53,141 nucleotides of DNA from Spirochaetales bacterium (lineage in GTDB: Bacteria; Spirochaetota; Spirochaetia; Sphaerochaetales; Sphaerochaetaceae): NCBI GenBank assembly GCA_022788185.1, contig JALEVV010000025.1:1-53141 (forward strand), in the 5' to 3' direction. The notes beneath the pieces are model-generated. The model had not been told where the DNA came from. It saw only the letters and a list, made by a program, of their open reading frames with translations, and did not search any database. The position numbers were made by a program, and so were the translations under genes. Shown piece after piece: positions 11,190-12,979 of this stretch (position 1 is the first letter of the stretch; each line of letters starts with the position of its first letter).

Positions 11190-11194
11190 TATAG

Positions 11195-11225
11195 CTGCCA
11201 TCTCCACCGGGGGATGGCAGTTTTT
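11195..11225 (+). terminator. Rho-independent terminator of the ABC exporter operon
   Basis: CTGCCATC pairs with GATGGCAG (8 bp, extended by T-G, C-G and C-G pairs) around the loop ACCG, followed directly by TTTTT at 11221-11225. It starts 6 bases after the stop of subunit B. Confidence 0.85.
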
Positions 11226-11454
11226 CAATATTGAACATAAAGTATGGTTTCAAGGCTGCAAATATAAAAGTGCGGATATCCTCAGGGGAGCATGATGTGT
11301 TTGAACATGTATGTGGTATTCCACAAATGGTGATGTACTTCCATGTTCAGAGCCTGTGGTACCGGAACCTCTGTTTCTCAGTAATTCATGATTACATTCA
11401 GCTTTTGAAATAATTATTTAATGCTGGGATCTTGATTTGATCAATGTGATACAT
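11226..11454. other. Intergenic stretch with no supported gene
   Basis: Between the exporter terminator and the antitoxin promoter no frame has a ribosome binding site or family resemblance. A 60-codon frame at 11231-11413 has no Shine-Dalgarno and follows the terminator directly. AT content rises toward the right. Nothing else is visible. Confidence 0.5.
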
Positions 11455-11484
11455 TTGATTTTGATTAGAATACGATGGTATCAT
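11455..11484 (+). promoter_or_regulatory. Promoter of the RelB/DinJ-type antitoxin
   Basis: TTGATT (11455-11460), 18-base spacer, TATCAT (11479-11484). GATAC (11449-11453) and GTATC (11478-11482) flank the spacer as an inverted pair that might bind an autoregulator. The Shine-Dalgarno AAGGAG follows at 11508-11513. Confidence 0.5.
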
Positions 11485-11527
11485 ATTATAAGCAGAAAGA
11501 ATATATAAAGGAGATCTAAGTATATCA

Positions 11528-11782
11528 TTGTCTACTTTAACCGCACGTGTTGACTCTCAGGATAAGATCGATTTCGATTCATTCTGCTCCAGTGCTGGTC
11601 TTAATACATCGGTTGCCATCAACCTGTTTGTGAAAGCTGTACTCAGGGAAAATCGTATTCCTTTTGAAATCGCACAATCTTCAGATCCTTTTTATCTTAA
11701 ATCCAATATTGATTATGTAAAGAAATCTGTTGACGAACTGAGAGCCGGAAGAGGGACAGAGCACGAGCTTATAGAGGATTAA
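11528..11782 (+). CDS. RelB/DinJ-family antitoxin, no toxin beside it
   Basis: An 84-residue protein with the ribbon-helix-helix N-terminus of RelB/DinJ antitoxins (LTARVDSQDKIDFDSFCSSAGLNTSVAINLFVKAV) and a C-terminal toxin-neutralising tail. The family binds its own operator as a dimer and blocks a RelE/YafQ-type mRNA interferase. The proposed TTG start lies 14 bases after AAGGAG, a long spacing, so a non-canonical start a few codons upstream is possible. No RelE/YafQ-like frame follows: the next 276 bases lead to another toxin-antitoxin module. This is an orphan antitoxin or one whose toxin was lost. Confidence 0.8.
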   Translation: MSTLTARVDSQDKIDFDSFCSSAGLNTSVAINLFVKAVLRENRIPFEIAQSSDPFYLKSNIDYVKKSVDELRAGRGTEHELIED

Positions 11783-11940
11783 TCACCCACGGGGCAGAGC
11801 CAGCGGGGTTTCCACCGACCTGATAAGGAGTATTTCGCTGAAAAATCTCAGCTTTCTCAGTAAGAATTGCTAGGTAACGAATATGGCTTTTTTGATTATG
11901 ATTAATCTTGTCCGAGTTAATATTTTTGCGTATAATTATC
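11783..11940. other. Intergenic sequence where a toxin gene would be expected
   Basis: No RelE, YafQ or other toxin-like frame is present. GCTGA (11838-11842) and TCAGC (11849-11853) can form a short hairpin followed by TTTC, a weak terminator candidate for the antitoxin transcript. From 11880 the sequence becomes very AT-rich, leading into the operators of the next module. Confidence 0.4.
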
Positions 11941-11950
11941 TTGAAATATG

Positions 11951-11998
11951 CGCAATTATTGCGTATTTGAAAATGATATATTACGTAATAATTGCGTA
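11951..11998 (+). promoter_or_regulatory. Two palindromic operators upstream of the HTH-MntA antitoxin gene
   Basis: CGCAATTATTGCG (11951-11963) is a perfect palindrome about a central T. TACGTAAT-A-ATTGCGTA (11982-11998) is the same palindrome with one mismatch and longer arms. The centres are 33 bases apart, about three helical turns, so two dimers would sit on the same face. A third half-site TTGCGTATAATT lies at 11926-11937. They precede a gene whose N-terminus is a helix-turn-helix, which suggests autoregulation. Confidence 0.65.
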
Positions 11999-12058
11999 TT
12001 AATAATATTCTTTAAACGCGAAAGTTGCGGTTTTTGATAAGATGATTTGAGGATTGAT

Positions 12059-12529
12059 ATGACACTGAAGGAACTTCGTAAGCAAAAGAACATAACACAG
12101 AAAGCATGTGCATCATATCTTGGTGTCCCTCTGCGGACTTATCAGATGTATGAGGCTGATGATTCCAGATCATCCACGATAAAATATGATTACATGATGC
12201 AGAAACTTGCCGAATATGGTTTCATCGACGAAAGCCATGGAATATTAAATATTCAGCAGATAATAAAAACATGTGAAGAAGTATTAAGGGATTACGATGT
12301 TGATTATTGTTATCTGTTCGGTTCTTATGCAAAAGGTAATGCCACGGAAAGCAGTGATGTTGATCTTCTTATCTCCTCTCATGTAACAGGTATTGATTTC
12401 TATGAGATGGTTGAATTACTTCGCGATGCTCTGAAAAAAAATGTGGATGTTTTGAATTCAGAACAACTGGCAGGAAACCCTGAATTGTTAAATGAAGTAT
12501 TAAAGACCGGGATAAAGATATATGGATAA
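12059..12529 (+). CDS. mntA: HTH-MntA fusion: antitoxin nucleotidyltransferase with DNA-binding domain
   Basis: A 156-residue protein. Residues 1-55 are an XRE-like helix-turn-helix (TLKELRKQKNITQKACASYL). Residues 60-156 are a minimal nucleotidyltransferase with the GSX10DXD signature of MntA: G88-S89, then D100 and D102. MntA antitoxins inactivate HepT by AMPylating its active-site tyrosine. Typical MntA lacks a DNA-binding domain, so here transcription control and toxin modification sit in one chain. The ATG at 12059 is preferred over TTG at 12047 because TGAGGA lies 5 bases ahead of it. The gene overlaps hepT by 8 bases and is far more AT-rich than the surrounding chromosome. Confidence 0.88.
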   Translation: MTLKELRKQKNITQKACASYLGVPLRTYQMYEADDSRSSTIKYDYMMQKLAEYGFIDESHGILNIQQIIKTCEEVLRDYDVDYCYLFGSYAKGNATESSDVDLLISSHVTGIDFYEMVELLRDALKKNVDVLNSEQLAGNPELLNEVLKTGIKIYG

Positions 12530-12872
12530 CACAAAAGGCAATATATATTATATCAGGAAAATGATTGCTGATCTGGAATTCTTAATTAAACATACAAGAG
12601 AGATCTCATGTAAAGAGTTATCAGAAAACGAAATACTTATTGATTCTATAATGTTTAGATTAATTCAGATATCAGAAAATTCTGCAAAACTTTCAGATGA
12701 CTTCAAAGCAAGGTGCAATCAGATTCCCTGGAGGGCAATCAAAGGACTTAGAAACAGGATCGTGCATGAATATGGCAAAGTTGATCTGACAGTCGTTTAT
12801 GATACTGTCAAGAACGATATTCCCAAGCTTTTTGATCTACTCATTGATGTGGTAAATACTGATCGTGCATAA
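12522..12872 (+). CDS. hepT: HepT-like HEPN ribonuclease toxin (DUF86)
   Basis: A 116-residue all-helical HEPN protein with the RX4HXY motif R77-NRIV-H82-E-Y84. Arg and His are the RNase residues and Tyr is the residue AMPylated by MntA in studied HepT/MntA pairs. The start overlaps the antitoxin stop by 8 bases, giving translational coupling with antitoxin first. The length is normal for the family. With the upstream gene it forms a complete, apparently intact type VII toxin-antitoxin module. Confidence 0.9.
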   Translation: MDNTKGNIYYIRKMIADLEFLIKHTREISCKELSENEILIDSIMFRLIQISENSAKLSDDFKARCNQIPWRAIKGLRNRIVHEYGKVDLTVVYDTVKNDIPKLFDLLIDVVNTDRA

Positions 12873-12936
12873 GGCCATTGACCATGAAACTGAGTAATGC
12901 AGATCCAAACCTGGTTTGAAATGTCTGATGATTGAG

Positions 12937-12974
12937 GAAAAGAACACCTCAGGCCCCACCTGCCTGAGGTGTTC
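12937..12974 (-). terminator. Terminator of the pseudophosphatase lipoprotein gene
   Basis: GAACACCTCAGG (12942-12953) and CCTGAGGTGTTC (12963-12974) form a perfect 12-pair stem with a 9-base loop. On the minus strand it follows the stop at 12980 and is followed by CTTTTCC. Confidence 0.85.
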
Positions 12975-12979
12975 ACGTA

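Follow-up and report, generated by a model that had tools for sequence, protein, structure and literature searches.

The locus analysed here raises the question of whether an antitoxin that enzymatically modifies its toxin can also act as the repressor of its own operon. In HepT/MntA modules, the minimal nucleotidyltransferase (MNT) moves AMP onto the tyrosine of the RX4HXY motif of HepT, thereby blocking RNase activity (PMC7641770). The transcriptional control of these modules has been little studied; we found one report, in which Shewanella SO_3165 (MntA) bound its own promoter and repressed it ~1.6-fold, with no DNA-binding domain recognised in the protein (PMC4621449). An earlier note on the window, that is, the whole 53,141-nucleotide stretch of DNA under study, had described an MntA antitoxin with its own helix-turn-helix (HTH) and proposed that this one protein would sense the toxin, modify it and control its transcription. 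This interpretation is plausible from sequence and is strengthened by our comparison with relatives. We consider it likely that the locus encodes a type VII HepT/MntA module, in which the XRE-HTH-fused antitoxin represses its own operon via a helically phased operator array.

The module consists of two genes, mntA first and hepT second, which overlap by 8 bp (12522–12529):

12059–12529, plus strand: HTH-MntA antitoxin gene, ATG at 12059, 156 aa
HTH-MntA residues ~1–55 and ~60–156: XRE HTH and minimal nucleotidyltransferase domains, respectively, from Pfam profiles and an AlphaFold2 model
12522–12872, plus strand: HepT (HEPN) toxin gene, 116 aa, HepT-like (PF01934)

Within the single open reading frame at 12059–12529, Pfam matched HTH_3 to residues 3–37 (29.4 bits, cut-off 23) and Polbeta/NTP_transf_2 to residues 71–155 (Polbeta, PF18765, 55.9 bits, cut-off 26.9), which bears out the claim that the antitoxin carries its own HTH. 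Both HTH_3 and Polbeta were matched in the full-length proteins of all 20 aligned members (20/20). The GSX10DXD motif is intact, as had also been claimed (G88-S89-X10-D100-V-D102), and is invariant across 20 aligned HTH-MntA members. The AlphaFold2 model (mean pLDDT 88.8, pTM 0.63) shows five N-terminal helices, with helix 3 spanning residues 25–33, followed by a mixed alpha/beta domain. The modelled HTH domain resembles XRE/lambda-repressor-like folds with middling Z-scores (28tn, 7.0; Aca1 on palindromic DNA, 6.8; HipB, 6.6), and HigA2 is also among its fold matches. The modelled MNT domain matches solved MNT antitoxins (8xeh_E, Z 12.8 over 96 residues; 7bxo_E, Z 10.9).

HepT matches PF01934 with 73.4 bits (cut-off 23.5, E 1.7e-20). 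Its RX4HXY motif reads R77-NRIV-H82-E-Y84 and is invariant across 10 aligned HepTs, in agreement with the earlier assignment of Tyr84. An AlphaFold model, made from an input alignment without one locus from the phage collection, is a helical bundle (mean pLDDT 87.5), and its top 16 Foldseek rows are all HepT/HEPN toxins (probability 0.85–1.00), with weak E-values (best 0.065). Searched against the PDB by sequence, HepT gave weak matches only, with chance-like viral NS1 matches on top.

Taken together, a GSX10DXD MNT, an RX4HXY HEPN protein, an antitoxin-first overlapping gene pair and an MNT fold are features of type VII HepT/MntA systems, while the XRE HTH on the antitoxin and the palindromic operators at the promoter are those of autoregulated type II modules with Xre antitoxins. 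The best NCBIfam equivalogs, NF047752 and NF047751, are narrow models rather than a biochemical definition; MntA scored 50.7 bits and HepT 36.0 bits against them, below the curated cut-off of 60, and we therefore do not file the module under either.

The region upstream of mntA contains the following elements:

11908–11936, plus strand: candidate sigma-70-type promoter TTGTCC-N17-TATAAT with the half-site in its spacer, 10 of 12 matches (promoter-like matches in the upstream region do not outnumber those in shuffles)
11918–11930, plus strand: in-phase operator half-site TAATATTTTTGCG, right half TTGCG, 33 bp before site 1
11951–11963, no strand assigned: operator site 1, perfect 13-bp palindrome CGCAATTATTGCG
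11984–11996, no strand assigned: operator site 2, CGTAATAATTGCG, 5/6 pairs
12017–12029, no strand assigned: operator site 3, CGCGAAAGTTGCG, 4/6 pairs

The palindromes at 11951, 11984 and 12017 are spaced exactly 33 bp start to start. The earlier note had counted two palindromes 33 bases apart; the spacing holds, but the count becomes three sites plus a half-site, and we rejected an arrangement of two operators only once site 3 and the in-phase half-site were found. The 13-mer of site 1 also occurs upstream in relatives L002 and L065. Allowing up to one mismatch, CGCAANNNTTGCG occurs three times in the 53-kb window, each time at one of the three operator positions. This count alone is not significant (3 against 1.05 expected, with 11/100 shuffles reaching 3); when the 160 bp upstream in the window were dinucleotide-shuffled 500 times, two sites 31–34 bp apart never appeared (0/500). 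In the whole genome, there is one other exact CGCAANNNTTGCG among the matches listed, so the operator sites appear dedicated to the mntA–hepT operon and its local control. With up to one mismatch, CGCAANNNTTGCG is found at at least 72 places in the genome, compared with at least 33 for a reversed control pattern, and a wider regulon of the sites is possible.

The half-site TTTTTGCG ends at 11930, directly before the TATAAT box. The stretch between the −35 and −10 boxes is the classic location of a repressor site. Inspection by eye placed the promoter-proximal site or half-site between TTGACA-like and TATAAT-like boxes in six relatives as well (L005, L018, L022 and L045–L047). The best promoter of the window precedes the three palindromes; in relatives, the −10 box follows the palindromes. 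An alternative, weak −10-like TAAGAT was noted by eye at 12038–12043.

We then surveyed genome contigs, IMG/VR, GenBank phages and whole genomes of the same family, class and phylum, obtaining 27 non-redundant full-fusion loci, the window and 26 further ones (L063 and L064 duplicate L062 in the fusion region). Identity is 46–68% in the 19 aligned relatives. Named hosts are Bacillota, Mycoplasmatota and Actinomycetota metagenome-assembled genomes, and the fusion also occurs in related genomes and on phage contigs. Single-protein scans of viral contigs gave no further HTH-MntA relatives, and among plasmids the sole match to the fusion was distant (33% identity).

The array accompanies the fusion. 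At least two palindromes, 31–34 bp apart and within 160 bp of the start, precede it in 21/27 loci, whereas 500 dinucleotide shuffles give an expectation of 0.05 loci. The observation of the earlier note is confirmed and extended. All 26 adjacent spacings fall between 31 and 34 bp (31 bp, 5; 32 bp, 9; 33 bp, 10; 34 bp, 2). Five of the six remaining loci have one site, with or without a half-site (L006, L035, L041, L045 and L047), and L003 has no operator site upstream of the fusion. On the phage contig L065, five copies form 33-bp direct repeats beside the terminase gene. Sites scoring 11–12 occur at 6.5 per kb upstream compared with 0.05 per kb in the rest of these loci (~130-fold denser), but we give more weight to the spacing and the shuffles, because the score was built from these same sequences. 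By contrast, none of 24 control loci whose MNT protein lacks this HTH has a phased pair 31–34 bp apart (0/24).

Half-sites fall into the classes ACGCA, GCGCA, GTGCA, ATGCA, GTGCC and ATGCC, and their bases vary together with two residues, 29 and 30, located in helix 3 of the HTH-MntA model. Q29 goes with C at −6 in 26/26 cases and R30 with C at −3 in 25/26, the sole exception being L035; K29 with GT and I/L/V29 with AT at −7/−6 each hold in 23/26. In a tree of the MNT domain only, Q29, C(−6), R30 and C(−3) each change twice and K29 changes four times, and pairs differing in both traits always do so in the same direction, never the opposite. There are about two independent changes per trait, with which a sign test cannot reach 0.05. 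Mutual information computed over every protein column was not accepted as proof that residues and bases touch, because shared ancestry makes other columns score just as high; we report the tree pattern alone. The residue–base association is suggestive, but not conclusive, support for this HTH reading these sites.

The module sits in a short variable segment of the genome:

11190–12979, no strand assigned: accessory island with an orphan RelB/DinJ antitoxin gene, the operator array and mntA–hepT, absent from sister genomes G001 and G006

In both sister genomes, where the ABC transporter is 83% identical, the lipoprotein gene comes directly after the transporter gene, and RelB, MntA and HepT are all missing from the junction; owing to this adjacency of the flanking genes, we interpret 11190–12979 as an accessory insertion. 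The RelB/DinJ gene (11528–11782, plus strand; TIGR02384, 54 bits; TTG start as listed) has no toxin gene beside it and is separated from mntA by 276 bp. A strong terminator-like hairpin of 13 pairs (12942–12974, minus strand) at the right edge of the island is oriented for the lipoprotein gene, and an inverted repeat resembling it separates the two flanking genes in the sister loci. Elsewhere in one sister genome, a broken HTH-MntA copy (L023, G001:C28) is accompanied by two palindromes 34 bp apart. On the IMG/VR phage contigs L062 and L065, both among the nearest relatives of the window's gene pair, the HTH-MntA/HepT cassette and its array lie between the genes for the terminase large subunit and the portal.

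In about 10 of the 27 loci, HTH-MntA is kept while HepT is lost, truncated or frame-shifted, in some cases perhaps through assembly errors; these HTH-MntA proteins are possibly solitary antitoxins or parts of decaying modules. HepT is missing or damaged in L018, L020, L047, L003, L035, L016, L012 and L019, most of which have operator sites. The array is retained in L018, L020, L012 and L016, which points to an HTH protein able to work in the absence of HepT. In L002 (3464-), an HTH-MntA with 66% identity and an array is followed by a helicase-like ORF in place of HepT, with the same 8-bp overlap, possibly reflecting recombination or a new partner.

These results fit a scheme in which HTH-MntA would bind each palindrome, [CT]GC[AC]A-N3-T[TG]GC[AG], as a dimer, either by itself or with HepT as a bridge. 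A distance of 31–34 bp corresponds to about three helical turns and places the sites on one face of the DNA, and tandem sites so arranged could permit cooperative binding across the promoter, with repression rather than activation as the presumed outcome. The MNT domain would add AMP to Tyr84 of HepT and thereby silence the predicted RNase activity, and hence the presumed toxicity, of the HEPN protein. Feedback of HepT level or AMPylation on DNA binding is speculative. A more far-reaching version is tentative: the adenylyltransferase antitoxin would be a cooperative, helically phased repressor whose occupancy changes on HepT binding or AMPylation, such that covalent toxin inactivation is read out as transcription, phages and chromosomes would carry the module as a self-contained cassette, and the code at residues 29 and 30 would diversify its specificity.

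Other readings of the locus account for parts of the data. The array could be the operator of another, trans-acting regulator, with the HTH of MntA serving dimerisation or targeting, as HTH domains may be put to other uses and a host factor might in principle use the sites. We regard this as very unlikely: the array accompanies the fusion in three or more bacterial phyla and on phage contigs, the control MNT loci lack it, operator bases shift jointly with recognition-helix residues 29 and 30, and even the decayed copy in the sister genome keeps two sites. The 33-bp repeats might instead be iteron- or centromere-like DNA for replication, partition or packaging and no operator at all. The position of near relatives in phage packaging blocks (in L062 and L065 the module is flanked by terminase and portal genes) and the five terminase-adjacent repeats of L065 would suit such a role, to which we nevertheless give hardly any credence, as arrays precede the fusion in chromosomal contigs too, go with the gene and not with the replicon, and coincide in part with promoter-like boxes.

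Two further explanations concern the proteins. MntA might bind HepT and repress the operon as in a plain type II-like sequestration pair, its nucleotidyltransferase activity being lost or irrelevant. According to an initial report, MntA of Shewanella also neutralised HepT Y104A (PMC4621449), and the scores below the NCBIfam equivalog cut-offs point the same way, but the GSX10DXD motif and the acceptor tyrosine are invariant in the aligned sets and, according to a later study, both matter for neutralisation in Shewanella (PMC7641770); we judge this explanation unlikely. The module could also be in decay, with HepT no longer toxic and HTH-MntA kept as a solitary regulator, in line with the HepT losses among the relatives and the decayed copy in G001. 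This seems quite unlikely for the window, where both genes are intact and all invariant residues are present. Our preferred reading remains a predicted AMPylating antitoxin that is probably the repressor of its own operon.

Among the closest known systems is Shewanella oneidensis SO_3166/SO_3165, with which the module shares the MNT gene upstream of the HEPN gene, the gene overlap, the GSX10DXD and RX4HXY motifs and the MNT fold. It differs in the fused N-terminal XRE HTH, in its shorter HepT (116 versus 133 aa) and in its regular array of like sites, where the Shewanella promoter has two dissimilar palindromes (PMC4621449). The earlier statement that classical MntA lacks a DNA-binding domain is correct for the domains, but for SO_3165, promoter binding with mild self-repression has been reported without any HTH, so autoregulation is not a new function for MntA (PMC4621449). 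The nearest solved MNT by both sequence and fold is that of the Legionella pneumophila HEPN-MNT system (PDB 8xeh, 8xeo), a 108-aa protein without the HTH of the present fusion; we found no promoter-binding or transcription study in the corresponding paper (PMC11586414). In Streptococcus suis Xress-MNTss, an Xre protein and an MNT share one self-repressing operon with promoter palindromes (PMC8406773), but these are separate genes, the MNT is reported as the toxin and there is no HEPN partner, whereas here one fused chain is found. The HTH and ribbon-helix-helix (RHH) fusions described by Makarova in 2009 involve HicB and HEPN (paREP1), not MNT, and we found no paper on an HTH-MntA fusion among the open-access papers searched.

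The present chain also differs from the antitoxins HigA, HipB and RES-Xre, which are not enzymes, in adding a predicted adenylyltransferase. Type II modules of this kind combine an antitoxin bearing an XRE HTH with upstream operators that are palindromic. In AbiE, the nucleotidyltransferase acts as the toxin, and DNA binding belongs to a separate antitoxin protein. Going by the discussion of AbiE in PMC4621449, AbiEi/AbiEii resembles the present module in combining a self-repressing DNA-binding antitoxin with a nucleotidyltransferase. We rejected an assignment to AbiE type IV because the HTH and nucleotidyltransferase share one chain and the partner is HepT-like.

This family has an explicit DNA-binding domain, explicit operators and natural variants in specificity, and so makes it possible to test how toxin level, AMPylation and transcription are linked. 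Because relatives in other bacteria and in phages have the same layout, self-control by a type VII antitoxin can be tested directly. The phage copies between terminase and portal genes hint at why independent control could be useful.

Nucleotidyltransferase fusions of other kinds occur in same-family genomes. Four loci (L025, L027, L038 and L040) encode MNT fusions of a second type, whose RHH-like N-terminus Pfam does not recognise and which have a conserved GATAGGTATATACTTATC just before the start; in L040, HepT lies downstream. Pfam further identified nucleotidyltransferase fusions with winged-HTH-like domains and with another XRE type. Given these several types, the joining of a DNA-binding domain to a nucleotidyltransferase seems to be recurrent.
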